The notes under the pieces: model-generated | The model's input: only the letters and a program-made list of their open reading frames with translations | Told to the model about the DNA's origin: nothing | The model's database searches: none | Virus record (IMG/VR): IMGVR_UViG_3300032288_003498 | Coordinates: 1 to 26,585 of that record | Strand: one strand, 5' to 3' | Length of the DNA stretch: 26,585 nucleotides | Source of the DNA: a virus | Program-made: the position numbers and the translations under genes | Shown: in pieces, positions 9,763-26,585 of the stretch | Layout of the letters: every line of letters starts with the position of its first letter | Position numbering within the stretch: position 1 is the first letter of the stretch

Positions 9763-10278
9763 TTAACTAAGTCCTAAATGTGCTTTTATTGCTGCTAATT
9801 CTGATTTTAATTCTTCGATTTCCTCACATTTCGCATCATACATTTTTTTGAAATCTTGTAGTGCTAATATTTGATAAGTATTAATTACGTTCCAGTTAAG
9901 AGATAATGTATCCGGAACATCCATTGCTGCATGCTTTTCTGCGTACTTTTGCTTTACTTTCTCAACTTCATCAATTCCAGAAATACCAACCTCTTGCATA
10001 ATTGGTTCTGTAATTTCAGATAGTTCGAATTGCATTGGTCTTGCATCACTACCACAATGTACTGCTTCTGGGAATATCTCCATCACATCCTGAGCGATTA
10101 ACCCCTGATTTACAGTTAGCATTTTGGATATTTTTCTCTCTCTTTGTTTAGGAGTATCTGTATCTTTTAGTTCGAATTTATAAGCGAATGTTACCGGCTT
10201 CAATTGCATGAACCTATCTATGTATTCATAGTTTTCACTTACTTTTTCTCTTATAGAATATTTTAATCTTCTATCGGA
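9763..10278 (-). other. Peptidase S74 intramolecular chaperone domain
   Basis: Last 171 codons of the giant fibre. The Ser codon of SDRRLK is at 10278-10276, with Lys five residues later as in known S74 domains. GLIAQDV and FPEAV follow. The long C-terminal helix (YDAKCEEIEELKSELAAIKAHLGLS) fits the trimeric coiled coil of the released chaperone. Confidence 0.92.
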
Positions 10279-13200
10279 GTTATAAAATACACCATTGTTA
10301 CCTAAATATGCAATATATCCACCAGTTCCACCATCTTCATCCGAAAACATAAATGCTTGGAATAAATCGTTTGGTGTCCAGAATTGCATAAAGTCACCAT
10401 TGATACCAATTCCACCAGACTCACCACCACTTAATGAACCAAAGTCACTTCTAACTTCCCACACACCCATTGTGTATCCACCATATAATCCAACACCAGT
10501 ATATCGAGAACTACTACCATTATAAAAATAATGAGCGTTAAATCTAGGTTCTGAACCAGTATTTACTCCCTGATTTAAGTTGTATGCTGCGTTTGCATTT
10601 GATGAATCTAATGCAATAGCAAGGTTACCACCATACGAGTTTTTAGCTATTCGTAAAGTACCACCATACCAATAAGTCTGCCAGCTATAAGAATTATTAT
10701 GGAAACCAGATTCGTTACCATTTGAATAAGCCATTATAGATACAGGACCATTACTTACACTACCAAACTCAATACCAGGCCATCCGTTTCTACTACCATC
10801 CATTCTCCAAGAACCATATGATGCGTTGTTTGGATAAATGTGTGCGGAGTTTATTCCACTATAATGTCCGTGATATCCTGTAAGTTGATTCCAAGTATGT
10901 TGGTATGAATAGTTTGAACCACCATTGAACTGCCATACAATACTTGCCATATTATAGTCGGTATAGAATCTCATACCTTCATAAGATGGGTTTGCACCAA
11001 ATTTAATACCAGTGTGGAATGCTACACGTAAATCAGGATAAGGATAACCCCATCCACCACTTTCTCTAAATATACCATATGCTTCATCAACTGTTGCATT
11101 ACTGAATGATAATCCAAATCTATGGTCGGTAGATACATCATAGTTATTTCTAATATAGAACGTACCAATACCCCATAATCTAGACCAAGTATTTCCATCA
11201 ACATAATATCCAGTGTCATGGTCATAGAAAATTGGAGAGCGAATATCGTTGTTTACATATACACCATAAGGTTGCATTGACATTCTTTCAGAACCAGCAT
11301 AATATAAGTAAAGTACAGCTCCACTCATATACCAAACCCAACCTCTACTATTATCGTGTACACCAACGTTATCGCCGGTAGTACTCATAAACACATATCT
11401 ACTACTAATACCCCACCCATACCAGCCATTTCTACCACCACCATAAGTAGTTACGTTACTATATGAATTGCCCTCACATTCAGGTGACCATATACCTCTA
11501 CCATATGATTGGAAATACAATCCACAACATCCTTGAGGTCTAAACCAATCATTTGCAAATACTGCAGCAAATTGCGAAGAACCATTAGGGTCACAGTAGT
11601 ATCCAGTATTATTTCTATCATAAAAAATAGTACTATCAATTCTACCAACACCATAGATATCGTAACCATTATGTTCGTTATGATAATAGTGTCTAATCCA
11701 GTTATTAGAATAATATTGTAAATAAATTGAATTACCACAAAATGAATCTATATGTAAGTTACCAGGAAGATAAATTCTACCACAACCATTTCTAGCATAT
11801 AGGTATTCGTTTACTTCAAGACGATAGAATTGAGATGTGGATTGTGGATTGATATAATAAGATGTATCACCAGAATCATAATAGAATCCTGCATAGAAGT
11901 CTCTATTAGCTTCGTGGTTATTACCATACATAGCTATCTTAAACCAACCACCAAATGCTGCCCAACTATGTCTCCACCATAATGAATCAGTAACACCACC
12001 AACCATTTGCCATCCATAACGATATCCATTATATCCACCATTAAAGTGCATTGATTGAATACCAAGATAGTGAGAGGTATCACCAGGTGAGTTACCAGGA
12101 GAACTCCATGTATCAAAAAATCCAGAACCCCAACCAAATACATCATTCATATCGGTAGTTCCCCATCCCATTGTACCAACCCAATATCTACTATCAGATG
12201 TTATATTAGAACGTGGATTGTTATAGAAATAGGTCATACCTATTCTATCTTTACTTCTTTCAGTTACCCAGTTCCAGTTTGTATAACTATTACCATCAAA
12301 ATAGTATCCAGTGTCGTGGTCATAATATATAGATGCTCTAACATCAGCATGTGCATAAACACCATGTGACCTCATTGACATTCTATCACTACCAGCGTAA
12401 TACAAATTCAATTCAGCCCCACTCATATACCAAATCCAGCCGTATGAAGTATCATGCAAACCAAAGTTAGTACCAGTAGTAGTCATTAAAGTGTATCTAC
12501 TTGTAACACCATATCCATACCATCCATTTCTACCACCACCATATGTAGTTATATGTCCGTATGGATTACCTTGTTGTTCTGGTGCTACATAACCTCTACC
12601 ATATGAGTTCCAATACATACCTAACGCACCATTGATATAGTACCAATCGTTTATTGTTAGCCAATTAAAGTTAGAACCAGATGCTGGATTTATATAATAT
12701 CCCGTATTATCTCTATCGTAAAAAGTATAAGCGTAAACTGAATTTCTTACATACCAGTTATGAGAAGTATCAAACCAAACGGATGCAGGGTATGACCAGT
12801 TAATACCTACTCCATAATGTGGATTGTAGTTATTATCAAACCAACCAAAACTCATTTCATTTGGATTCCAGTTTGCAACACCAATACTAAATCTTCTAAA
12901 TCCACCAGATATCGAACCTGTCATACTAAACACACCACCATGTGTTGTGTTTCCATTATTTGAATATGTGTTTATATACAAATGTGGATAGTATGGTCCA
13001 TTAACTACTAAACCATATCTACTATCATCAGGATATATTGAAGTTGCTCCATTGGTTGCTAATGTTTCAGGACCAACCATTAAACTCCAACCATTCTCAG
13101 CACTATCTATAAGTAATCTACCTAATCTAGAACGAGATGCTGCATTTATATAATACCCAGTATTATCTCTATCATAGTAAATGTCAGAACGTAAGTTATA

Positions 13201-16200
13201 TGTGTTTACGGCGTTACCTTCACCCATATACATTGTCATAGATGAGTTATTACCATACCAATGTTGTGCTTCAACTACATATGCGGAGAAGTCCCAACGA
13301 GGTTCATTGTTTACGTTGTTTACTAATTTAATTCTATTACCAACAATATAATTTGTACGAGATGTTGATGCAAAATCACCATAATATCCAGCATCGTTTG
13401 AATCATAGTAAATCGGAGCGTACATAGCACCTCCAATAGATACAGTACCACCAATGAATGCCCCACCAGCAAATCCAAAACGAGAGTAAGTTGTACCATT
13501 GTTTCTTAGTGCTAAATGATGGTCATATCCACTACCATATTCATAACCCAATCCGTACATATTACCAATTGGCCAAGATTCACCGATAGTCCAAATTACT
13601 TTAGATGCTGTACCAGTAACATTGTAATCACCCATCAAACCACCACTATTACGGCTTACCAAATAGTTGCTATACCACACTCTACCAGCAAAGTTACCTT
13701 CGTTTAAGTTAGAATAAGAAGCAGGGTTTGTATAATATCCAGTATTATCTTGGTCATAAAATATAGGAGAACGCATTGAACCATATGCATATAAATTACT
13801 ACCGGTATCCAATTCCATTCTAGTGGTATTACTACCTCTATCATATACTGCAAATGTAGCTCCAGATGTTGAACCCAATGACCAATTTCGCGTTGTAGAT
13901 ATTATATCTATCCAAGTATTTGCGTTTGGTGATTGGAAACCCGCTACTTGGTTTTGGTTTCTATTTACATGTACACCATATCCCGGTGCTGATGTGCCAA
14001 ATCCAACATTATCATTAAAATATATATAAGGATATTCATATGCTGTACCATCTGATGTGTAAACACTACTTAGTGTCATACTATCAGTTACATAGTTTCT
14101 AGATGTACTATCTGGTGCAAATACTCTTACTCTTAATGTATAACTATTTGCAGATGAATCTCTACTTGCTACTACAATTCTCCATCTACTACCAGTCCAA
14201 ACAACATTACCAAATGTAATACCATTTCCAGTTTGACCTCCATTATCAATTATCCTACTTTCATTTGCATAAACACCACCATCCGGAGATAATCCTAAAT
14301 AATATCGTTTTTTAACTAAACCAGGTCTATTTGCGTAGTTATATGAAGTAGTTGCTTCAATTTCTATCGTACCCCAAAACCAACCATTAAATTCTAAATT
14401 TGCTTTTTGATTTCCAGCATTGGCAGTACTATAATTAAAATATCTAACACCATGTGTACTATTTTCTTTATATGTACCATTAACAATAAGGTTATTTATG
14501 TTTGAATCCGATGCCGGGTCTAAATAATATGAAGTATTATCTAAATCATAAATAAATGGAGTTCTAAGCTGATTATAGATATATACAATTCTATTGGAAT
14601 CAAATCTCGCTGCATGCTGTCCATTAATAGATGTAAAGTCAGATGTATTATTTACATAGATATCTAACCAACCATTCGTATTTGTTCTACCTGCTACAAT
14701 ATAGTTTGCTCCATTATTACCCAATTGTAAACCATACCAGTTAAGAGATGAATGATATGCATCAGAACCGGCTGTATATCTAGCTCTAAATGAATACGAT
14801 GAATTATAAGTTCGTATATCACCAGTATCATTTATTGAATTGGTGTTTAGATAAACCGTACCATTGAATGTAAGATTATTATATTGTGCTACTAATACAT
14901 CATTTGTATTATATGCTCCATACGTTCTCTTAAATCTTAAACGAATACTTTCGTTAGAATCATAATCATCTTCCGATTGAAGAATCAATGCTCCACTATT
15001 TGAACCAGCTGGCGATTCTCCATATATTTTCCAATAATCGTTATCACCAATAGTTTGCCCAATATAATAAGTTGGCTGAGTTGCAACACCAGCATAAGCA
15101 GTACCAACAGGGTTTTGTGGTAATGATAAAATTCTAGTAGTTGTAGTACCATTTACCGCTGCATTACCATTTATTGTTAATCCAGCAAATGTAGGCGAAT
15201 CCGTTGTACGAACTGCCTGATTTAGATAATCGGAGAATTGATATCCATCCCATAAATCTGCATCAAGTCCACTACCAGCCCCATCATTTCCAGTATGCCA
15301 TAATTTATGACCAGTACCCCAAGTTGCGGAATCGTATGCTTGCCTAGCTACATAAACATTATCAGAGTACTTATCTCCAACAATTGCCCAGCTTTGTTTT
15401 ACATCTCCACCTGTATAAGTTGACATCCATAAAACATCATTCCAACTTCCACCAAATCCAAGGTTACCACCACTAAGCATTGCTACCTTTAACTTACCAG
15501 CACCAAATATAGCGTTGTTTGGCTTTTCACTACCACCACTTACATAATAACCACCTAAATAGTTATCTGCTCTTGTATATTGTCTTTGGTCGTAAAAAGT
15601 ACCATCTTGCCCATCTAATAAATCTGCGTTAAGGTTATCTACTTTTGTTGTAGATGATACCACTAATGGTGAAGTTCCAGTTGCTACCGTTGATGTAATT
15701 CTATTAAATGAAACGTTATCAGATGTACGAACATTCTGATTCATTAAATAAACTTCAGTTGCTCCCTGTCCAGTATCAATTGTTCCACTAACAACTATAT
15801 TACCAGCTACTTCTAAATTTGCATCAGCATACCATTCTAAACCAGACTCACTCCAATAAAATTGACGAGTTGGTTGTGTTCCTCTCTTAACTTCTATACC
15901 AGCATTTTCAGTTGGTGTAGTACCTGCTCCAATATCTGCATTTAATGTGATAATATTATCACCTACGTTAAGAGTTGTTGTATTAATATATGTTGTAGTA
16001 CCACTTACAGTAAGGTCACCACTAATTGTAGCGTTACCAGTTACTGCTAATGTAGTACCATCGAATCTTAAATTTGCTTCAACGGTTGCGTTTGGCGCAG
16101 TTCCGTTTAATGTGATTACACCATTATCAGTTGTACCAGTTAATGATAATAGTCCAGAAGAACCAGATGTACCTTGCGTTCCAGATGTACCCGATGTGCC

Positions 16201-18483
16201 ACTACTACCAGAAGAACCAGATGACCCAGATGAACCCGAACTTCCACTACTTCCACTTGTTCCACTACTTCCAGACGTTCCCGATGACCCAGATGAACCA
16301 GACGTTCCCGATGAACCAGACGTTCCCGATGACCCAGATGTACCACGTGTACCCGATGTACCCGTAGTTCCTGATGTGCCGCTACTACCAGATGTTCCCG
16401 ATGAACCACTACTTCCAGAAGAGCCACTTGTGCCACTACTTCCACTTGTACCAGCTGAACCACTTACTCCAGAAGTTCCCGATGAACCAGAAGTTCCCGA
16501 TGACCCAGATGAGCCAGATGTTCCCGAAGAACCAGAAGAACCAGAAGTTCCAGAAGAGCCACTCGTTCCACTACTTCCACTACTACCAGACGTTCCAGCC
16601 GAACCACTTACACCGGATGTACCACTACTACCAGAAGTTCCAGCTAATCCATCTTTACCACTACTTCCAGACGTTCCAGAAGACCCAGATGAACCATCTT
16701 TACCTGTTGTACCACTACTACCAGACGTTCCCGAAGACCCAGATGAACCCGAAGTACCTCTTGTACCAGAAGTTCCCGATGTGCCAGATGTTCCATTCGT
16801 ACCAACCGCACCATCTTTACCACTACTACCAGAAGTTCCCGAAGAACCAGATGTACCACTTTCTCCACTACTACCACTACTTCCAGAAGTTCCCGAAGAC
16901 CCAGACGTTCCTCTTGTTCCCGAAGAACCAGAAGTTCCTGATGTACCTTGTACACCCGCTATACCACTGCTTCCACTGCTTCCACTGCTTCCACTGCTTC
17001 CAGAAGTTCCTGATGAACCAGAAGAACCAGAAGTTCCTGATGACCCAGAAGACCCAGATGTTCCACCACTTCCTGCCGTTCCAGACCCACCACCAGCACC
17101 AGTTAAACCACTACTACCAGATGAACCAGACGAACCAGATGAACCGGATGAACCACTACTACCAGACAAACCAGATGAACCGCTTGTGCCGGATGAACCA
17201 GATGAACCATCTTTGCCCCCAACTCCAGTTAAACCAGAAGTTCCAGATGAACCAGATGAGCCAGATGTTCCCGATGAACCAGAAGACCCAGAAGTTCCCG
17301 ATGAACCATCTTTACCACTACTTCCAGACGTTCCAGTTGTGCCAGACGAACCACTACTTCCAGTAAGTCCGCTTGTTCCAGAAGAACCAGAAGTTCCGGA
17401 TGAGCCACTACTTCCACTACTTCCACTACTTCCACTACTTCCACTACTTCCATCTTCACCACTACTACCACTAGTACCGCTAGAACCAGAAGAACCAGAA
17501 GTTCCCGAAGACCCAGAAGAACCAGAAGTTCCCGAAGACCCAGAAGAACCAGAAGTTCCAGAAGAGCCACTCGTTCCAGAAGACCCAGATGTACCACGTG
17601 TACCAGAAGTTCCCGATGTGCCAGATGAACCACTACTTCCAGAAGACCCAGAAGTTCCTGATGACCCAGACGAACCAGAAGTTCCCGATGAACCAGAAGA
17701 CCCAGAAGTTCCCGAACTACCACCACTACCAGAAGTTCCCGATGTGCCAGATGTTCCTGATGACCCAGATGAGCCAGACGTTCCTGAAGTACCAGATGTA
17801 CCGGATGTTGCTGCTGCAAACTTTCTACTAATTCTTCCTGTTGTTGTATTGAGAACTAATACTTCGTTTGTTGTATTATCGGTTGGTATTGTATCGCCAG
17901 TTACGAATATTGAACCACTAATAGATAAACTACCAGTTATTTCTTGCTTATCAATTACATTATCACCAAATTTATTTGAACCAGATGAGTAAATTACCGA
18001 TGATGAAATATATGTTGTATGTATTTCAGTAGCCGTTATTTTACCAGCTACACTAACATCTCCTTTGAAAATACCACTACCAGTTACAATTAAAAATTTA
18101 TCTACACTAACACCTGTGTTAATTAATAATCCTTTGTTTGGAGAAATAATTGCTGTTACTGAACCCGATTTTAATCTATCTAAATCACCGATTGATGATG
18201 CTTGAATATTAAATAATCCACTACCATCTCCTTGAAATAAAGATGCAGATACAGAAGACGATATATTTACTGAACCAGTAAATTGAGTATTTCCTTTTAT
18301 TACTATTGGTGAGTTCGATGAACTACCAATTAAATTTGTTTGGATTCCAGATGCAGAAAAATTACCAACAACATTCACCGATTCCGATGTGAAGTTAGCA
18401 ATTCTGCTTCCACTTACAAATAACGAAACTAAGCTTTGGCTTAGTTGATTTAATCCATTAGGGGTGCTACCTAAATACTCCAT
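9763..18483 (-). CDS. Giant collagen-like tail fibre with S74 self-cleaving chaperone
   Basis: A 2906-aa fibre. Residues 1-227 are Ser/Gly beta-type modules (GDGSGLFNI; SGSVTAIISPNKGLLIN) shared with the other giant fibre and probably the virion-proximal end. Residues 228-777 are a collagen-like shaft of 183 Gly-X-Y triplets, X and Y mostly Ser or Thr. From 778 come LTGTTDNGVITLNG, trimeric beta modules with NADLLDG and LDADLWDGY, then nine YYDxDNTGYY-type repeats (about 1310-2440) in Tyr/Asn/Gly-rich sequence. The C-terminus (2736-2906) is the peptidase S74 intramolecular chaperone: SDRRLKYSI, LKPVTFAYKF, GLIAQDVMEIFPEAV. Ser2736 and Lys2741 match the Ser/Lys pair used for self-cleavage in endosialidase-type fibres, so about 171 residues should be released after trimerisation. 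The role is host-surface binding. Confidence 0.95.
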   Translation of the reverse strand: MEYLGSTPNGLNQLSQSLVSLFVSGSRIANFTSESVNVVGNFSASGIQTNLIGSSSNSPIVIKGNTQFTGSVNISSSVSASLFQGDGSGLFNIQASSIGDLDRLKSGSVTAIISPNKGLLINTGVSVDKFLIVTGSGIFKGDVSVAGKITATEIHTTYISSSVIYSSGSNKFGDNVIDKQEITGSLSISGSIFVTGDTIPTDNTTNEVLVLNTTTGRISRKFAAATSGTSGTSGTSGSSGSSGTSGTSGTSGSGGSSGTSGSSGSSGTSGSSGSSGTSGSSGSSGSSGTSGTSGTRGTSGSSGTSGSSGTSGSSGSSGTSGSSGSSGTSGSSGSSGTSGSSGEDGSSGSSGSSGSSGSSGSSGTSGSSGTSGLTGSSGSSGTTGTSGSSGKDGSSGTSGSSGSSGTSGSSGSSGTSGLTGVGGKDGSSGSSGTSGSSGLSGSSGSSGSSGSSGSSGSSGLTGAGGGSGTAGSGGTSGSSGSSGTSGSSGSSGTSGSSGSSGSSGSSGIAGVQGTSGTSGSSGTRGTSGSSGTSGSSGSSGESGTSGSSGTSGSSGKDGAVGTNGTSGTSGTSGTRGTSGSSGSSGTSGSSGTTGKDGSSGSSGTSGSSGKDGLAGTSGSSGTSGVSGSAGTSGSSGSSGTSGSSGTSGSSGSSGTSGSSGSSGTSGSSGTSGVSGSAGTSGSSGTSGSSGSSGSSGTSGSSGTSGTTGTSGTRGTSGSSGTSGSSGTSGSSGSSGTSGSSGTSGSSGSSGSSGSSGSSGSSGTSGTSGTQGTSGSSGLLSLTGTTDNGVITLNGTAPNATVEANLRFDGTTLAVTGNATISGDLTVSGTTTYINTTTLNVGDNIITLNADIGAGTTPTENAGIEVKRGTQPTRQFYWSESGLEWYADANLEVAGNIVVSGTIDTGQGATEVYLMNQNVRTSDNVSFNRITSTVATGTSPLVVSSTTKVDNLNADLLDGQDGTFYDQRQYTRADNYLGGYYVSGGSEKPNNAIFGAGKLKVAMLSGGNLGFGGSWNDVLWMSTYTGGDVKQSWAIVGDKYSDNVYVARQAYDSATWGTGHKLWHTGNDGAGSGLDADLWDGYQFSDYLNQAVRTTDSPTFAGLTINGNAAVNGTTTTRILSLPQNPVGTAYAGVATQPTYYIGQTIGDNDYWKIYGESPAGSNSGALILQSEDDYDSNESIRLRFKRTYGAYNTNDVLVAQYNNLTFNGTVYLNTNSINDTGDIRTYNSSYSFRARYTAGSDAYHSSLNWYGLQLGNNGANYIVAGRTNTNGWLDIYVNNTSDFTSINGQHAARFDSNRIVYIYNQLRTPFIYDLDNTSYYLDPASDSNINNLIVNGTYKENSTHGVRYFNYSTANAGNQKANLEFNGWFWGTIEIEATTSYNYANRPGLVKKRYYLGLSPDGGVYANESRIIDNGGQTGNGITFGNVVWTGSRWRIVVASRDSSANSYTLRVRVFAPDSTSRNYVTDSMTLSSVYTSDGTAYEYPYIYFNDNVGFGTSAPGYGVHVNRNQNQVAGFQSPNANTWIDIISTTRNWSLGSTSGATFAVYDRGSNTTRMELDTGSNLYAYGSMRSPIFYDQDNTGYYTNPASYSNLNEGNFAGRVWYSNYLVSRNSGGLMGDYNVTGTASKVIWTIGESWPIGNMYGLGYEYGSGYDHHLALRNNGTTYSRFGFAGGAFIGGTVSIGGAMYAPIYYDSNDAGYYGDFASTSRTNYIVGNRIKLVNNVNNEPRWDFSAYVVEAQHWYGNNSSMTMYMGEGNAVNTYNLRSDIYYDRDNTGYYINAASRSRLGRLLIDSAENGWSLMVGPETLATNGATSIYPDDSRYGLVVNGPYYPHLYINTYSNNGNTTHGGVFSMTGSISGGFRRFSIGVANWNPNEMSFGWFDNNYNPHYGVGINWSYPASVWFDTSHNWYVRNSVYAYTFYDRDNTGYYINPASGSNFNWLTINDWYYINGALGMYWNSYGRGYVAPEQQGNPYGHITTYGGGRNGWYGYGVTSRYTLMTTTGTNFGLHDTSYGWIWYMSGAELNLYYAGSDRMSMRSHGVYAHADVRASIYYDHDTGYYFDGNSYTNWNWVTERSKDRIGMTYFYNNPRSNITSDSRYWVGTMGWGTTDMNDVFGWGSGFFDTWSSPGNSPGDTSHYLGIQSMHFNGGYNGYRYGWQMVGGVTDSLWWRHSWAAFGGWFKIAMYGNNHEANRDFYAGFYYDSGDTSYYINPQSTSQFYRLEVNEYLYARNGCGRIYLPGNLHIDSFCGNSIYLQYYSNNWIRHYYHNEHNGYDIYGVGRIDSTIFYDRNNTGYYCDPNGSSQFAAVFANDWFRPQGCCGLYFQSYGRGIWSPECEGNSYSNVTTYGGGRNGWYGWGISSRYVFMSTTGDNVGVHDNSRGWVWYMSGAVLYLYYAGSERMSMQPYGVYVNNDIRSPIFYDHDTGYYVDGNTWSRLWGIGTFYIRNNYDVSTDHRFGLSFSNATVDEAYGIFRESGGWGYPYPDLRVAFHTGIKFGANPSYEGMRFYTDYNMASIVWQFNGGSNYSYQHTWNQLTGYHGHYSGINSAHIYPNNASYGSWRMDGSRNGWPGIEFGSVSNGPVSIMAYSNGNESGFHNNSYSWQTYWYGGTLRIAKNSYGGNLAIALDSSNANAAYNLNQGVNTGSEPRFNAHYFYNGSSSRYTGVGLYGGYTMGVWEVRSDFGSLSGGESGGIGINGDFMQFWTPNDLFQAFMFSDEDGGTGGYIAYLGNNGVFYNSDRRLKYSIREKVSENYEYIDRFMQLKPVTFAYKFELKDTDTPKQRERKISKMLTVNQGLIAQDVMEIFPEAVHCGSDARPMQFELSEITEPIMQEVGISGIDEVEKVKQKYAEKHAAMDVPDTLSLNWNVINTYQILALQDFKKMYDAKCEEIEELKSELAAIKAHLGLS
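11173..11547 (-). repeat. Internal duplication in fibre, copy B (125 codons)
   Basis: Residues 2313-2437 of the giant fibre. They align almost without gaps to residues 1947-2072 (copy A): shared SYGRG, TTYGGGRNGWYG, SSRY/TSRY, WYMSGA, LYYAGSxRMSM, GVYxxxDxR and YYDHDTGYY/FYDHDTGYY. Copy B carries CC and ECEG, which copy A lacks. Confidence 0.85.
12268..12645 (-). repeat. Internal duplication in fibre, copy A (126 codons)
   Basis: Residues 1947-2072; partner of residues 2313-2437 (see copy B). The two copies are 1.1 kb apart with unrelated Tyr/Asn-rich sequence between them. They are diverged at the DNA level, so the duplication is not recent. Confidence 0.85.
16153..17802 (-). repeat. Collagen-like shaft of the S74 fibre, 183 unbroken G-X-Y triplets
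   Basis: Residues 228-777 of the fibre. The first and last Gly are 549 residues apart, exactly 183 triplets, and I saw no break in the Gly register. Triplets are mostly GSS and GTS, with sparse GKD, GED, GLT, GRT-type, GVQ and GIA triplets; no proline was seen. The DNA is a nine-base-period repeat that uses several Ser codons (AGT, TCA, TCT, TCC, TCG). Confidence 0.92.
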
Positions 18484-19221: not shown

Positions 19222-19665
19222 TTAAGGTTTCGTAGGCCAACTTATATCAAATGGATTAGTTTGTGAAGTAATATCTCTAAGTTGTTGCCTATATGTTTGC
19301 CACAATTCTTTTATTTCCGTTGAAATATCGGATAATTGAGTCCAATCACATTCTTGTAATAATGTATTTCGTATATCTCTGATTTCTTCCCATTTATTTT
19401 CAATTCTAAAATTAATTTCAGATTCCGTTGCATCTACAATTTGCCAATTTTGATAATAAACATCATCAACTAATATAGGAGTTCCCTCTGATATATTTTT
19501 TGTGTAATCATTTGGTTTTGGCGTTGATTGTACATGATACATATCAAATTGTATCATCATACTATCTGTAATAGCCGATGGGAAAGTTACATTTCTATTA
19601 TCATCTCTTAATTTTTGTAAAGAGTATGGATATACTATATTTTCATTTATAATTCTTAAATACAT
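19222..19665 (-). CDS. Tail-fibre assembly chaperone-like protein
   Basis: A 147-aa protein whose C-terminal half has the signature of the phage tail-assembly chaperone family (Pfam Phage_tail_APC): RNTLLQECDWTQLSD, then WQTYRQQLRDIT and PFDISWPTKP (residues about 97-147). Members help fold or attach tail fibres. The N-terminal half (YPYSLQKLRDDNRNVTFP) is the usual variable part. It lies between the two giant fibre genes, three bases after the PKD/LRR protein (TAAATTATG), so coupled translation is likely. Which fibre it serves is not visible from the sequence. Confidence 0.85.
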   Translation of the reverse strand: MYLRIINENIVYPYSLQKLRDDNRNVTFPSAITDSMMIQFDMYHVQSTPKPNDYTKNISEGTPILVDDVYYQNWQIVDATESEINFRIENKWEEIRDIRNTLLQECDWTQLSDISTEIKELWQTYRQQLRDITSQTNPFDISWPTKP

Positions 19666-19668
19666 AAT

Positions 19669-20574
19669 TTATTTCCAATTTAGAGGTATTGATGCAAAAT
19701 TTGATAATCCCGTACAATTATTGAATGCATCAGTTCCAGATGGGGTTGGAGTTCTATTCCACAATTCAGGTGCGTTTCCTATTAAAGCATTAGCAGTAGA
19801 ACTCATATTATAAACACTATTAAAAATAGTAACTTGTGTATTATATTGAAACGTTAAAACATTTGTCAATGACCTACAGTTACGAAATGTACCAGAAAAG
19901 TTTGTTACATTTACATTTTGGTCAAATAAATCAGATGGTACGGATGTTAATGCCGTACATGCAAGAAAACACGATGCAAAGGTAGTTACGTTTAGATTAT
20001 TATCAAACAATCCAGATGGTATGGTTGTTAATGTAGTTATAGATGAAAAAGCATCTATAAAAGTTGTAACATTTGGAGAACTATCAAACATATCAGATGG
20101 TATAGATGAAATTCTAGTACCTCTCATAAAGGAGGCAAACGAAATCATTTCATCTAATCCACTATATCCACCAACTGCACTTAATGATGCGCTTGATGGA
20201 ATTGATGTTATATTAACGCATCCATAAAAGTTCAAAATTCTCAATCCGACTATTCCAAATTGAACTATTTCAGTAATAAGATTTCTTATTGCTGAATTAT
20301 TACTTACTGAAAATCCTGGCATAAAACCACTTATAGTAATTATATAAGTTCCGGGACTTACATAAGTATGTATTCTATTTAAGTCCGTAGATGATGTAAT
20401 TAATGGAGAATTTGGACTCCCATCACCCCATTGGATATTCAATGAAGGAGTTAATCCCCCATAGTTCACCAAAGGTACAGTAAATACAGTGTTTGCGGTA
20501 GTTGTTACTACTTTAATTTTGAAAGGGAATACTTGCCCACTATCCGATGGTATTAATTTTCTAGCTATGCTCAT
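19669..20574 (-). CDS. PKD-like plus leucine-rich-repeat adhesin-like protein
   Basis: A 301-aa protein with two parts. Residues about 20-88 form a PKD-like beta sandwich: IQWGDGSPNSP, then IHTYVSPGTYIITISG, matching the WGDG and HTY-x-x-PGTY core of that domain. Residues about 150-245 contain three 27-residue repeats of the BspA/DUF285 leucine-rich type: IPSDMFDSSPNVTTFIDAF, IPSGLFDNNLNVTTFASCF and VPSDLFDQNVNVTNFSGTF. A partial LTNV/GCVNITSIPS unit lies on each side. No signal peptide is present, as expected for a virion protein. These domains mediate adhesion in bacteria and are abundant in Bacteroidota surface proteins. With fibre genes on both sides, a receptor-binding or fibre-tip role is likely (inference). 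The ATG follows the fibre stop by 11 bp. Confidence 0.85.
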   Translation of the reverse strand: MSIARKLIPSDSGQVFPFKIKVVTTTANTVFTVPLVNYGGLTPSLNIQWGDGSPNSPLITSSTDLNRIHTYVSPGTYIITISGFMPGFSVSNNSAIRNLITEIVQFGIVGLRILNFYGCVNITSIPSSASLSAVGGYSGLDEMISFASFMRGTRISSIPSDMFDSSPNVTTFIDAFSSITTLTTIPSGLFDNNLNVTTFASCFLACTALTSVPSDLFDQNVNVTNFSGTFRNCRSLTNVLTFQYNTQVTIFNSVYNMSSTANALIGNAPELWNRTPTPSGTDAFNNCTGLSNFASIPLNWK

Positions 20575-20585
20575 AACATTAAATA

Positions 20586-23500
20586 TTAACTCATATCTTT
20601 TCCAACCAAAAATCCATAATAAGATGTTCCACCATCAAAAGTAAAGAATGTTAATACATCCGTACCAGATGATGATAATAATGGTTGAGAACCACCTACC
20701 CAATTTACAATAACCGGCCAATCTATCACATAAGCTCCAGCATTTACAGTTGTTATTGTAAATCCAAATGCTCTACCCGATGGGGCTGATGTAAATGTTA
20801 TAGTTGCTGCTGCATTGAATTGTCTTCTAAAGTTATTTGCTGTTGATAAATCTATTGATGTACTTCCACCAGTTCCTAAATCCGAATAAGTTTCTCTAAA
20901 TGCAGTAGCTCCAGCATAAGTTGATTCAATTCCACCTGTTATTGATAATAAACTTCCATTAAATGTAATGTTACTCTCAACTTGCCCTTTAGTATTACCA
21001 TTATCCCAAGTTATTAAACCATTATCAGTTGTACCAGCTAAATCCAAGAAACCACTTGTACCACTACTACCATTACTGCCGCTTATTCCCGATGTACCAG
21101 ATGTACCAGCTCCAGAAGTTCCAGACGTTCCTGATGCTCCGCTTGTACCACTACTTCCAAAGTAAGTTCCATCAAAACCAGATGTTCCAGATGTTCCCAA
21201 TCCAGATGTTCCAGACGTACCATTTGATGCGGATACTCCAGATGTTCCAGATGTACCACTACTACCAAAGAATGTTCCATCAAATCCAGACGAACCGGAT
21301 GTACCTGTTGTACCACTTATACCTGATGTGCCGCTTACTCCAGATGTACCCGATGTACCAGTTGTTCCACTACTTCCGAAGAATGTACCGTCAAATCCAG
21401 AAGAACCAGATGTACCAGCCGAACCACTTATACCCGATGTACCACTTTGTCCAGATGAACCAGAGCTTCCACTTTCTCCCGAAGTACCACTACTACCAAA
21501 TAAAGTACCATCCAAACCAGATGAACCAGACGAACCAGCTGTACCACTAACACCAGATGTACCACTTTCTCCCGATGTGCCAGATGAACCAGATGAACCC
21601 GATGTGCCAGATGAACCAAAGAATGTTCCATCAAATCCAGACGAACCGGATGTACCCGTTGTACCACTTGTTCCAGTTTCTCCCGATGTGCCAGATGAAC
21701 CACTCACTCCCGAAGTACCACTACTTCCGAAGAATGTACCATCAAATCCAGATGACCCAGATGTACCAGATGTACCAGACGAACCAGAAGTGCCACTTTC
21801 ACCAGATGAACCCGATGTACCACTTTCGCCTGAAGTACCATTACTTCCAAAGAAAGTACCATCTAAACCAGACGAGCCAGACGTACCACTTTCGCCAGAT
21901 GAACCAGACGTTCCATCAACTCCACTACTTCCAGAAGTACCTCCACTTCCGCTTGAACCAGAAGAACCAGATGAACCACTACTTCCGAAGAATGTACCAT
22001 CTAAACCAGATGAACCAGACGTTCCATCAACCCCACTACTTCCAGATGAACCACCAGAACCAGAAGTTCCAGATGAACCACTTTCACCACTACTTCCAGA
22101 AGTTCCTGTTGTACCTGAAGTACCATGCGAGCCAAAGAATGTACCATCTATACCAGAAGAACCAGATGAACCGGATGTTCCACTACTTCCCGATGTGCCA
22201 GAAGTTCCGGATGTTCCACTTTCTCCGCTTGTACCACTACTACCAAAGAATGTTCCATCTAAACCAGAAGAACCAGATGTGCCTGAGCTTCCAGACGAAC
22301 CACCACTTCCGCTTGTTCCACTTTCGCCTGATGAACCAGATGAACCGCTTATACCAGAACTACCGCTACTACCATTAAACGTTCCATCTTTACCAGACGT
22401 ACCAGATGTACCATCTACTGCCGATGTACCAGATGTTCCATCAACTCCAGATGTACCAGCAGAGCCGCTAGTTCCAGACGTTCCTGATGTGCCGCTTTCG
22501 CCGCTTGTACCACTACTTCCAAAATATGTACCATCCAAACCAGAACTTCCAGATGAACCAGAACTTCCAGATGAACCACCACTACCATTTGTACCAGATG
22601 AGCCGGATGTACCACTACTACCAGATGAACCAAAATATGTACCATCTAAACCAGACGAACCGGATGTGCCGGATGTGCCAGATGAACCACCACTTCCGCT
22701 TGAGCCGCTTGTACCACTACTTCCACTACTTCCACTTGAGCCACTTGTACCATCTATACCAGAAGTACCATCATTTCCACTACTTCCGCTTGTACCATAT
22801 GAGCCAGTTGTACCACTACTACCAGACGAACCGGATGAACCTCCAGTTCCAGATGAGCCATCAGTTCCCGATGTACCATTTTCACCAGAAGAACCACTAC
22901 TTCCACTTGTACCATATGAGCCAGTCGTACCACTACTTCCACTACTACCAGAAGAACCAGCCGAGCCAGACGAACCATCAGTTCCAGATGTTCCGTTTTC
23001 TCCAGAAGTTCCCGATGAACCACCAGTTCCAGATGAACCTGAGCTACCAGATGAACCCGAGCTACCAGATGAACCCGAGCTACCAGATGAGCCCGATGAA
23101 CCTCCACTACCACTACTACCACTACTTCCAGAAGAACCATTTGTTCCTGAAGACCCAGATGTTCCATCAGAACCCGTAGTTCCAGATGAACCTGAACTAC
23201 CAGACGAACCTGAACTACCAGACGAACCAGACGAACCAGATGTTCCAGATGTTGCTGAAGTTCCACTACTTCCAGATGAACCACTCGAGCCAGATGTTCC
23301 CGAAGAACCTCCCGTACCAGCAGTACCACTACTACCAGACGAACCTGAGCTTCCAGACGAACCGCTACTTCCGCTACTACCACTACTTCCAGATGTGCCA
23401 GACGAACCACTACTTCCGCTTGTTCCAGAAGTTCCTGATGAACCAGACGAGCCAGATGTTCCTGACGTACCACTTATACCATCCGAACCAGAAGTTCCCG

Positions 23501-26500
23501 ATGTACCTCCGCTACCAGACGTTCCTCCACTACCAGACGTGCCAGATGAACCTGATGTACCAGATGAACCTGACGTACCAGCCGAACCACCAGAACCAGA
23601 AGTTGCCGATGTACCAGCCGTACCACCAGAACCAGAAGTACCTGATGTTGCGGATGTGCCAGAAGTTCCGGATGTGCCAGAAGTTCCCGATGTACCAGAT
23701 GAACCACCACTACCAGAAGATGCACTAGTTCCAGAAGAACCAGACGTACCTCCACTACCCGATGAGCCACCACTACCAGATGTGCCAGAAGTTCCTGATG
23801 AACCAGAAGAACCAGAAGTTCCTGAAGTTCCTCCACTACCAGATGTGCCACTACTTCCTGAAGAACCAGACGTTCCACCACTACCACTCGTACCAGGAGA
23901 ACCAGTTGTACCACTACTTCCTGAAGAACCACTACTTCCAGAGGTTCCCGATGTGCCAGAAGTTCCCGATGTGCCAGATGTGCCAGATGTACCAGATGAA
24001 CCAGAACTTCCTGATGAGCCCGATGAACCAGACGTTCCACTACTTCCCGATGAACCAGAAGACCCAGAGGTGCCACTGCTACCACTACTTCCAGACGTTC
24101 CTTCAGAACCAGTAGTTCCTGAACTTCCACTACTTCCACTACTTCCAGAAGAACCAGAAGACCCAGAAGTTCCACTACTTCCACTACTTCCAGAAGAACC
24201 GCTTGAGCCACTACTTCCAGACGAACCTGAGCTTCCAGATGAACCAGATGAACCTGAACTTCCAGATGAACCATCAGCTCCACTACTTCCGCTACTTCCA
24301 CTACTTCCAGACGAACCTGAGCTTCCAGATGAACCAGAAGAACCCGAACTTCCAGATGAACCAGATGAACCAGCAGAACCTGCGCTTCCATCTTTACCAG
24401 ATGTACCACCTGTACCAGACGAACCAACTGCAGCTGCTACGTTTCTTCTTTCTAATCTTTTTGTTACACTATTCCAAATAACAACATCATCGGATGAACC
24501 TGTTGGTAAATTTGTTAAAAATAAATTGGTTGCACCAGTAATACTTCCACTTACACCCAAACTACCACTAATAGTTAAGTTAGCGTTTATTGTAGAATCT
24601 TTATTTACTTGTAAGAATGATGCTGTATTTACTCCTTCCGCATTTAGAGCGTAAAGAGCGTATGATGCAGTGTATGCTAATGAAGCAGTACCAACTAACA
24701 TTGATGCAGTTTGTGAGTTCTGAACAAAGTTAGATGTATCTACGTTTGATGCATTTTGTGCAAATAATGCGTAAGATGCCGTTGTTGCAAATGATGAACT
24801 CAACACTGTCATTGATGATGTTCTATCATTTCTTACATAATCTACTAAATTTAATCCACTTAAGTTTTCAACATAAGATGCGGTTAATGCATAAGAAGAA
24901 CTTACTGCACTAAACACCGCCATTGATGATGTTTGATTATTTCTTACATATTGGGCAGTATCACTTAATGATGCCGATAATGATGCCAACGATGCGGAAT
25001 CAAATCCAGCAACAGTAAGTGCAAACTCTGCTTTTTGTGCATATGATGCAGATAACACATTACCAAATACTCTATCGCCGGTTATAGTTCCATTAATTAA
25101 AGAACCACCACTACCAATTACAGCATGTCCAGATGTTAATCCAGAAAATTTAATTTGTATTGTATTCTCATCAATTGATTTAACAGTGCCAGGTAGGATT
25201 TGGTCTTCAGAACCAGTTGCATAAACCTGAACCATAGGATATAAAATTCCTAAGTTGTGTACGATTGTTAAATCACTTACATTACTAAATGATACAGTTT
25301 CAGTTAATGATGTTTCAGGTTGAGGTACAAAATATCCTCTATTCTCATCGAATCTTAGGATATCATATTCAGCCGATGCAGTAGGTCCAACTCCTTGGAA
25401 ATTATAAGTTCCTAATAAAGAACCACTAACTAATGGAGCAAATACTCTATGCGAAGCAGTAACATCATGTGCTGTTAAATCATTTCCAACATAAAGATTA
25501 CCCCAAATACTTGCTGATGTATTAACTACAAATCCCTTATTAGGAGAAATTGATGCAGTATAAGAACCACTCTTTAATATGAATGTTTCGAATGATAAGT
25601 TAGCAATGTTGATATTTGTAATTCCACTACCATCTCCAATGAATGTTGAACCAGACGAAACTATTACATTTCCTCCCGTCACAAATAATCCACCACTAAC
25701 ACTTAGGTTACCAGATACAAATGTTTTAGTTCCAATTTCTAAGCCTTTATCAGGAGATATTACCGCCTGAACTGAACCAGATATAATTCTATCTAACTTA
25801 AGGTCTTGTAATGCGTTTGCAGGAATGTTAAATAATCCACCACCATCACCTATATAGAGTGCTGCAGTTATTGGTACGTTTACTAATAATTTTTCAGGAT
25901 CAACAATAGCAAATCCAGAACCAGAGTTAATTTTTGCTAATTCAAGTCCTTCAATTGCATCAGGTGGGATATTAAATAAACCACCACCATCACCAAAATA
26001 AAGAGATGCTGTGATTGAACCACTAATTGCTACCGATGATGTAAATTGTGATTTGTATGACCCAGATGATGCTTCTGTGATTACTTGGAATATTTCACCA
26101 CTTGCTACTGATGCAGTTGCCGAACCACTTGCTATTAAAGGTGCTGCTGATGCTTGTACGTTAGTAATAAACCTACCATCACCAAATATAAATCTTCTTG
26201 CTGTTAAATCATCAGCTATTAATGAACCACTTACAGATACTGAACCAGTTAATTGTGAACCAATTTTAGAACCAGTTGCTCCAGTTGTTACTACAAATGT
26301 ATCACCACTTGCTACCGAAGCAGTTGCAGAACCACTAGCGATTAACGGAGCTGCTGATGCTTGTACGTTAGTAATAAATCTACCATCTCCAATAAAGAAT
26401 CCAGTTGAAGTTATATCAAATGCTGATACAGACCCACTAACATTAATCGAACCAGTAAATTCAGAACCAATTTGAGAACCTGTTTTTGAGGTTATCACTA

Positions 26501-26585
26501 CAAATGATTCTCCACTAGCTACTGATGCAGTTGCTGAACCACTTGCTATTAAAGGTGCTGCTGCCGCTTGTACATTGGTAATAAA
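20586..26585 (-). CDS. Giant collagen-like tail fibre, 5' end outside window
   Basis: The open frame runs to the right edge; 1999 residues are visible. A GTG at 26498 is not a real start, because the coding pattern continues above it (FITNVQAAAAPLIASG). In order: 69-residue tandem repeats (1 to about 201), GDG-x-G-L-FNI modules shared with the S74 fibre, a beta region with 'SDLTIVHNLGILYPMVQVYA' (about 405-450), three exact-length 37-residue repeats (546-656), a collagen-like shaft of about 356 Gly-X-Y triplets (721-1845), LAGTTDNGLITWDNG and a C-terminal beta domain ending FTFDGGTSYYGFLVGKDMS. That last domain, with WPVIVNWVGG, resembles receptor-binding ends of other phage fibres. No S74 domain is present. 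Role: host attachment or virion surface fibre. Confidence 0.93.
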   Translation of the reverse strand, partial: FITNVQAAAAPLIASGSATASVASGESFVVITSKTGSQIGSEFTGSINVSGSVSAFDITSTGFFIGDGRFITNVQASAAPLIASGSATASVASGDTFVVTTGATGSKIGSQLTGSVSVSGSLIADDLTARRFIFGDGRFITNVQASAAPLIASGSATASVASGEIFQVITEASSGSYKSQFTSSVAISGSITASLYFGDGGGLFNIPPDAIEGLELAKINSGSGFAIVDPEKLLVNVPITAALYIGDGGGLFNIPANALQDLKLDRIISGSVQAVISPDKGLEIGTKTFVSGNLSVSGGLFVTGGNVIVSSGSTFIGDGSGITNINIANLSFETFILKSGSYTASISPNKGFVVNTSASIWGNLYVGNDLTAHDVTASHRVFAPLVSGSLLGTYNFQGVGPTASAEYDILRFDENRGYFVPQPETSLTETVSFSNVSDLTIVHNLGILYPMVQVYATGSEDQILPGTVKSIDENTIQIKFSGLTSGHAVIGSGGSLINGTITGDRVFGNVLSASYAQKAEFALTVAGFDSASLASLSASLSDTAQYVRNNQTSSMAVFSAVSSSYALTASYVENLSGLNLVDYVRNDRTSSMTVLSSSFATTASYALFAQNASNVDTSNFVQNSQTASMLVGTASLAYTASYALYALNAEGVNTASFLQVNKDSTINANLTISGSLGVSGSITGATNLFLTNLPTGSSDDVVIWNSVTKRLERRNVAAAVGSSGTGGTSGKDGSAGSAGSSGSSGSSGSSGSSGSSGSSGSSGSSGSSGADGSSGSSGSSGSSGSSGSSGSSGSSGSSGSSGSSGTSGSSGSSGSSGSSGSSGTTGSEGTSGSSGSSGTSGSSGSSGSSGTSGSSGSSGSSGSSGTSGTSGTSGTSGTSGTSGSSGSSGSSGTTGSPGTSGSGGTSGSSGSSGTSGSGGTSGTSGSSGSSGTSGTSGSGGSSGSGGTSGSSGTSASSGSGGSSGTSGTSGTSGTSGTSATSGTSGSGGTAGTSATSGSGGSAGTSGSSGTSGSSGTSGSGGTSGSGGTSGTSGSDGISGTSGTSGSSGSSGTSGTSGSSGSSGTSGSSGSSGSSGSSGSSGSSGSSGTAGTGGSSGTSGSSGSSGSSGTSATSGTSGSSGSSGSSGSSGSSGSSGTTGSDGTSGSSGTNGSSGSSGSSGSGGSSGSSGSSGSSGSSGSSGSSGSSGTGGSSGTSGENGTSGTDGSSGSAGSSGSSGSSGTTGSYGTSGSSGSSGENGTSGTDGSSGTGGSSGSSGSSGTTGSYGTSGSSGNDGTSGIDGTSGSSGSSGSSGTSGSSGSGGSSGTSGTSGSSGLDGTYFGSSGSSGTSGSSGTNGSGGSSGSSGSSGSSGLDGTYFGSSGTSGESGTSGTSGTSGSAGTSGVDGTSGTSAVDGTSGTSGKDGTFNGSSGSSGISGSSGSSGESGTSGSGGSSGSSGTSGSSGLDGTFFGSSGTSGESGTSGTSGTSGSSGTSGSSGSSGIDGTFFGSHGTSGTTGTSGSSGESGSSGTSGSGGSSGSSGVDGTSGSSGLDGTFFGSSGSSGSSGSSGSGGTSGSSGVDGTSGSSGESGTSGSSGLDGTFFGSNGTSGESGTSGSSGESGTSGSSGTSGTSGSSGFDGTFFGSSGTSGVSGSSGTSGETGTSGTTGTSGSSGFDGTFFGSSGTSGSSGSSGTSGESGTSGVSGTAGSSGSSGLDGTLFGSSGTSGESGSSGSSGQSGTSGISGSAGTSGSSGFDGTFFGSSGTTGTSGTSGVSGTSGISGTTGTSGSSGFDGTFFGSSGTSGTSGVSASNGTSGTSGLGTSGTSGFDGTYFGSSGTSGASGTSGTSGAGTSGTSGISGSNGSSGTSGFLDLAGTTDNGLITWDNGNTKGQVESNITFNGSLLSITGGIESTYAGATAFRETYSDLGTGGSTSIDLSTANNFRRQFNAAATITFTSAPSGRAFGFTITTVNAGAYVIDWPVIVNWVGGSQPLLSSSGTDVLTFFTFDGGTSYYGFLVGKDMS
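21051..24425 (-). repeat. Collagen-like shaft of the second fibre, with register breaks
   Basis: Residues 721-1845 counted from the window edge. Triplets are mainly GSS, GTS and GGS/GGT-type. Between 21171 and 22646 thirteen four-residue units G-T-F/Y/L-F/N break the register by one residue, and two G-L/G-A two-residue breaks lie near 21197 and 21108. These account exactly for the 1124-residue distance between first and last Gly. Ala replaces Gly in five triplets. Only one proline was seen. Confidence 0.9.
24618..24950 (-). repeat. Three 37-residue (111-bp) tandem repeats
   Basis: Residues 546-656: units start YVRNNQTSSM, YVRNDRTSSM and FVQNSQTASM, each exactly 37 residues, with TASY in the middle of each unit and YALxA around it. 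A degenerate earlier unit (SASLSDTAQ) precedes them. They probably form repeated strands or coils of the fibre neck. Confidence 0.88.
25983..26585 (-). repeat. 69-residue (207-bp) tandem repeats at the right edge
   Basis: Anchors FITNVQA at 26585, 26378 and 26171 are exactly 207 bp apart. Each is followed by APLIASGSATASVASG and a TGS-x-x-GS-type strand. The third copy is degenerate, about 63 residues. The first copy begins at the window edge, so the total number is unknown. Confidence 0.9.

Follow-up and report, generated by a model that had tools for sequence, protein, structure and literature searches.

The stretch of DNA analyzed here (the window, 26,585 bases) is a virus record with genes for a contractile tail sheath and for a baseplate component of the T4 type. 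On its minus strand, positions 20586 to 26585 encode a giant phage tail-fibre protein, of which the window retains the C-terminal 1,999 residues; the 5' end of its gene lies beyond the window at the contig edge. From the N- to the C-terminal side, this open frame is made up of 717 residues of a beta-type repeat, a collagen-like Gly-X-Y shaft of 1,128 residues (residues 718-1845 of the 5'-open frame; 21051-24434, minus strand) and a C-terminal head of 154 residues, predicted to be a small beta domain (20589-21050, minus strand). A fibre-assembly gene is located at 19222-19665, and a second giant collagen-like fibre of 2,906 residues, which we refer to as the sister fibre, is encoded at 9763-18483 (minus strand); besides a GSS/GTS shaft, it has a long distal part rich in beta structure and, at its C-terminus, an S74 (endosialidase-type) chaperone domain. 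Immediately past the fibre gene at 20586-26585, a 301-residue protein (19669-20574, minus strand) shows repeats of the form ..L..IPS.LFD.N.NVT.F...F..C..L.. and matches PHROG 9915 (E 6.2e-25). Antisense to the shaft, an open frame of 1,108 codons with PDVPDEP.. repeats runs from 21328 to 24654 on the plus strand; the simplest explanation is that it arises from the codon repeat of Gly-X-Y and is not a gene.

The fibre matches the Pfam Collagen model (PF01391; E 6.6e-110, 359 bits against a cut-off of 27), and PHROG tail-fibre families match it with a best E of 2.1e-103, a score that stems mostly from the repeat. Together with the sheath, baseplate and fibre-assembly genes within the window, the PHROG match identifies it as a tail fibre. 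A hit to the LPXTG-anchored Scl2/SclB adhesin model (NCBIfam NF038329; 365 against a cut-off of 325) was rejected, as it reflects repeat composition only, the head is a phage beta domain and the translation holds no LPXTG. The full-length fibre of the closest relative (L129/L273), whose head is 95% identical, spans 3,660 residues, with beta repeats over about 2,390 residues followed by the shaft and the head. The N-terminal 2,390 residues in L129 and in L273 (2510-8500) are many alike beta repeats (IPRSALT..SGSVTASVSP..GF.V), among which two domains of the HPFWIK...NGTDNG type are inserted, and this part contains a domain of a PHROG named baseplate wedge/tail fibre connector. A seemingly constant fibre length of 2,812-2,832 residues at many loci turned out to be an artefact caused by fetching the loci with an 8-kb flank. 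The protein is a giant collagen-like tail fibre of uncultured phages that are probably T4-like.

The head was modeled with confidence over residues 68-168 (pLDDT mostly >90). Among predicted viral structures it resembles many phage fibre tips (best E 2.6e-13), and among solved structures it shows a weak likeness to phage spikes and T4 gp9 (Z 7.9 to 6.0, the best below the trusted level). Comparison of the head with cultured phages returned three weak matches, and the two that were examined lack a comparable shaft. The shaft itself retrieves only generic collagens among solved structures.

The shaft comprises 344 regular triplets, foremost GSS (150) and GTS (102), with a single proline, 26 Phe and 5 Tyr. 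Its repeat suggests that this Ser/Thr-rich chain would form a triple helix. Two parts can be distinguished. The N-terminal part of about 594 residues (22653-24434, minus strand) keeps its glycine register throughout, with its longest unbroken runs reaching 78, 66 and 38 triplets, and is interrupted only by in-frame Gly-to-Ala sites, of which the whole shaft has six. The C-terminal part (21153-22652, minus strand) is broken 13 times by a residue too many.

Each of these breaks is a copy of the motif G-x-D-G-T-[FYL]-[FN]-G-S, which occurs exactly 13 times in the window, always on the minus strand, as a preliminary description of this DNA had counted. In every copy G-T-x-x-G replaces G-x-x-G, so that exactly one residue is added to the Gly register; all 13 are interruptions of the +1 type (G-x-x-x-G between regular Gly-X-Y runs), in line with the one-residue insertion claimed before. 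From the N- to the C-terminal side, the array opens with two copies of GLDGTYFGS (22626-22652 and 22515-22541), followed by GKDGTFNGS (22368-22394), the sole copy in the window without the second aromatic residue. GLDGTFFGS (22239-22265), GIDGTFFGS (22128-22154) and two further GLDGTFFGS copies (21981-22007 and 21843-21869) lead to a pair of GFDGTFFGS (21723-21749 and 21612-21638). The distal end is formed by GLDGTLFGS (21492-21518), GFDGTFFGS twice (21372-21398 and 21261-21287) and GFDGTYFGS (21153-21179), all on the minus strand. The spacings in this order are 37, 49, 43, 37, 49, 46, 40, 37, 40, 40, 37 and 36 residues, the same numbers as given previously in plus-strand order. The preliminary description had the array in the right place, with ends slightly inside the true ones. 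Two breaks of the opposite sign, in which one residue is missing, lie at the distal end: GLGTS between breaks 12 and 13 (21189-21203, minus strand; residue 1795 of the 5'-open frame) and GAGTS past break 13 (21099-21113, minus strand; residue 1825). The spacing of 36 residues thus equals 37 minus 1, because the one-residue deletion in GLG falls inside that segment.

The regularity of the array exceeds that of random placement by far. The coefficient of variation of the 13-break spacings is 0.11 compared with 0.86 for random placement, and none of 100,000 trials was equally regular. The confinement of the +1 breaks to the C-terminal half, which had also been noted earlier and is correct, has a chance of about 6e-5, taken as all 13 breaks falling into the last 47% of the shaft.

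To assess how general the array is, we turned to relatives. In viral contigs, a DNA pattern for the motif matched at least 119 stretches, many of which contain 5-12 matches at a spacing of about 100-130 bases, and a search with the head only found 106 relatives in viral contigs. From all loci, some of them chosen by the motif itself, we assembled 154 non-redundant shafts, in which 708 of 713 +1 breaks are the motif or its form with Asn for Asp (592 by the strict Asp pattern). Because part of this large set had been picked by the motif, the census was repeated on loci picked by the head alone. In the resulting 30 non-redundant shafts (31,028 residues), every +1 break is the motif (315 of 315), with 6-15 per shaft, alongside 71 breaks of the -1 type. 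The number of breaks therefore varies between relatives and reaches 17 elsewhere. The sister fibre shafts of the same loci (15,463 residues) contain not a single +1 break and one -1 break. Shafts without breaks reach at most 644 residues in this set, a figure in which length and gene family are confounded because the breakless shafts come mostly from the sister gene. In the relatives' shafts, the unbroken N-terminal part measures 549 ± 134 residues and the broken C-terminal part 400 ± 89. As far as could be seen in these sequences, arrays of breaks appear restricted to this fibre family. The motif is also present in single copy in collagen-like phage proteins unrelated to this fibre; together with scattered variants in a 735-kb metagenomic phage, these single copies indicate that the element itself is wider than this fibre family.

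The spacing follows simple rules. Across 616 spacings from the 63 shafts with at least five breaks, the median is 40 residues, 97% fall between 31 and 52 and one lies below 31, so the division of the distal half into segments that had been described for the window extends to its relatives. In 95% of these 63 shafts the breaks are more regular than random placement (p ≤ 0.01). Where nothing else intervenes (465 cases), the spacing equals 3k+1, and in 136 cases a single -1 break inside the segment restores the register. These -1 breaks sit near the middle of their segments, at a mean fraction of 0.515 with a standard deviation of 0.129, compared with 0.289 for a uniform distribution (124 distinct cases). 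The residue at the -1 break is free, with Ala (79), Leu (55), Ile (24), Val (23) and Phe (12) followed by Ser and others in the same shafts. Three relatives (L087, L096 and L111) carry a variant array of nearly uniform 36-residue units, in which the +1 break is usually cancelled by a -1 break within the unit. We also considered that irregular spacing might serve as a barcode forbidding slipped registers; the off-register coincidence of 0.40, however, is the same as with shuffled spacing order and does not support this idea.

Hinges, ligand or ion sites and inter-fibre contacts were the roles put forward in the preliminary description. Evenly spaced distal breaks could be hinges, each +1 break loosening or bending the helix so that the distal half of the roughly 320-nm shaft becomes a row of rigid rods, each about 11-12 nm long, and the head can search the cell surface. 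Register breaks do bend collagen, as known from the GQG site of mannan-binding lectin and the extra residue of C1q (PMC9898670), and the -1 break near the middle of 136 segments could be a second, softer hinge. We nevertheless regard this explanation as rather unlikely: a hinge needs no fixed sequence, yet of 707 motif copies, 706 have the Thr, 700 have the second Phe and all have the glycines, and the variable -1 breaks resemble plain hinges more than the +1 breaks do. The acidic position is Asp in 593 copies and Asn in the remaining 114, and variation is concentrated in the first residue and the first aromatic position, among hydrophobic or polar types. The emphasis that the preliminary description placed on Asp and paired aromatics is borne out in part. 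The pair is present in 11 of the 13 window copies (the exceptions being GTFNG and GTLFG), but it is no requirement: relatives frequently have Leu, Met or Asn at the first aromatic position, and in 16% Asn takes the place of Asp.

The same conservation would suit contact sites, in which exposed aromatics and Asp/Asn bind a cell-surface glycan, a divalent ion, a neighbouring fibre or, with the fibre folded back, the tail. Many evenly spaced copies are what multivalent contact would call for, and the lone copies in unrelated collagen-like phage proteins point the same way. A contact motif has no need of a +1 shift, yet the shift accompanies 688 of 696 motif cores in the non-redundant shafts, and the scattering without shift that would have spoken against a register break is not what we find. 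Furthermore, by collagen geometry, spacing steps of three residues would turn the helix so that the sites could not all face one side, which weakens this reading. We consider it unlikely.

A third explanation requires no function at all: one accidental break may have been copied along the shaft when a unit about 111-120 bases long was duplicated in tandem. Tandem Repeats Finder reports periods of 111, 120 and 231 bases in the window, one relative has many near-identical 36-residue units, and duplication surely helped to spread the array. As an account of its maintenance, however, this reading is largely refuted, and we hold it to be very improbable. Units of the window are mostly 0.8-0.96 identical to the same-numbered units of L129 (breaks 1 and 6 being 0.71 and 0.76), compared with mostly 0.6-0.8 for differently numbered units, which shows an old array and not a fresh duplication. 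The codons of the motif vary, with both Ser codon blocks in use, while its amino acids are fixed. Every non-redundant head-selected fibre has at least six breaks, and the limits on spacing persist although single triplets come and go between close relatives. Since the whole fibre family keeps the breaks, we take them as a selected structural element. The array is real and under selection; what it does is what we infer below.

Our proposal, to which we give a little less than an even chance, is that one selected structural element, present at all 13 sites, staples together the chains of a homotrimeric, collagen-like shaft. The consensus of the element is G-[LQVKFI]-[DN]-G-T-[FLYM]-F-G-[ST]; it shifts the register by +1 and is found in 6-17 copies per shaft, at spacings of 31-52 residues, in the C-terminal half. 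Layer arithmetic at a one-residue stagger turns G-L-D-G-T-F-F-G-S-S into a single Gly-free layer of Phe, Phe and Thr, and a -1 break into a layer with two Gly. Three chains with the usual one-residue collagen stagger would hence meet in one Gly-free cross-section per break, filled by Phe, Phe and Thr, where the helix would either open or have its centre filled. We envisage that the aromatics form a small knot on the axis or around it, with three Asp/Asn at its flanks, and that the regular triple helix resumes on both sides. Such a knot would staple the three chains and fix their register in a shaft that is nearly proline-free, has few charges and could otherwise melt or slip. The near-invariant Phe and Thr favour a packed knot over a loose hinge. 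Given that collagen is known to bend at register breaks, the knots may bend the shaft as well as staple it, and some local bending at each of them would be expected.

Folding of collagen usually begins at the C-terminal end. The knots adjoin the C-terminal head, which on its predicted model is plausibly the folding nucleus, and the long fibre might thus zip up from head to root. Several observations stand against the stapling proposal. The spacings are not unusually irregular, as register fixing might predict and as the off-register coincidence shows, and in the family of L087, L096 and L111 they are nearly uniform. Moreover, the N-terminal half of the shaft and the sister shaft do without staples. 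A single-chain AlphaFold prediction of a shaft segment with three breaks was uninformative (pLDDT 29.5). A more specific form of the proposal, which we put forward as possible though doubtful, holds that the repeated aromatic knot is a specific trimeric packing unit for nearly proline-free collagen that recurs every 10-14 nm and in some cases alternates with a one-residue deletion at mid-segment, by which the register is regained.

Collagen-like phage fibres and interruptions of collagen are each already known. The prophage collagens of E. coli O157 (EPcl) share with the window fibre a phage Gly-X-Y shaft, the lack of hydroxyproline and interruptions of the repeat, and their C-terminal domain forms trimers (PMC3368898). 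Pro and charged residues abound in their shaft, which lacks Phe, Tyr and Trp, and a single conserved interruption, G-X-P-G-G-P-X-G, has been reported in some members (PMC3368898). The window shaft, in contrast, is built of Ser and Thr with one Pro, contains the Phe and Tyr counted above and carries 13 recurring aromatic +1 breaks; it thus falls outside the Pro/charged-rich, aromatic-free EPcl type. For comparison with the PfN and Pf2 domains of EPcl, Collagen is the only Pfam domain in the window part, the N-terminal 1,997 residues of a relative contain none, and the window's own N-terminus is missing.

One-residue breaks in a collagen stalk that leads to a globular head are also found in mannan-binding lectin, where the GQG deletion causes a pronounced bend and lower stability, and in C1q, where an extra residue resembling the +1 breaks produces a kink (PMC9898670). 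Unlike here, where a near-invariant motif is iterated at regular spacing, those stalks have one break each, of other sequence. The interruptions of type IV collagen are of many types and sequences, whereas all +1 breaks of the head-selected set are one motif. They occur along a long non-fibrillar chain (PMC9898670). In a study of pelagimyophages, collagen repeats are noted for candidate receptor-binding proteins, with no further detail (PMC7029224). Among the open-access papers searched, an incomplete collection, we came across none that describes an array of iterated aromatic +1 breaks.

A DNA search of cultured phages with the broken shaft, limited by the low-complexity filtering of BLAST, returned only the unannotated 735-kb metagenomic phage (two records; LR756501). 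Its triplets are GSS and GTS, as in the window shaft and the sister fibre; unlike the window, it has only scattered copies and no array, with three variant breaks (GVDGSFLGSSG, GVDGTFYGSSG and GKDGNFLGSSG). This phage (LR756501.1, locus L269) encodes several collagen-like proteins of huge size; in one of them GTS blocks adjoin a long GPQ/GPT block, and small globular domains are interspersed. The closest cultured sheaths are those of Microcystis phage Mel-JY01 (46%) and of the Flavobacterium phages 'immuto' (54% over 45%); the stretches read from these phages contain no Gly-X-Y run. Among prokaryote genomes of 84,980 species, the pattern gave 61 single matches, all but one outside a Gly-X-Y context, and these 60 look like chance. 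The exception lies in a Gly-X-Y protein, which has one break; its contig (JAHEYD010000005.1) was assigned to a MAG of the archaeon Ca. Nitrosotalea and is probably that of a phage.

Interruptions of collagen have usually been studied singly and often as defects. Here, one interruption has been made a standard part, with 6-17 per chain in dozens of fibres, its sequence and shift fixed and its spacing bounded, while the sister shaft has none. These fibres offer a natural test set for the effect of a +1 break on the triple helix and a possible recipe for a stable long collagen without hydroxyproline. If the more specific form of our proposal is true, the aromatic knot would be a built-in design rule by which these phages make long hydroxyproline-free collagen.
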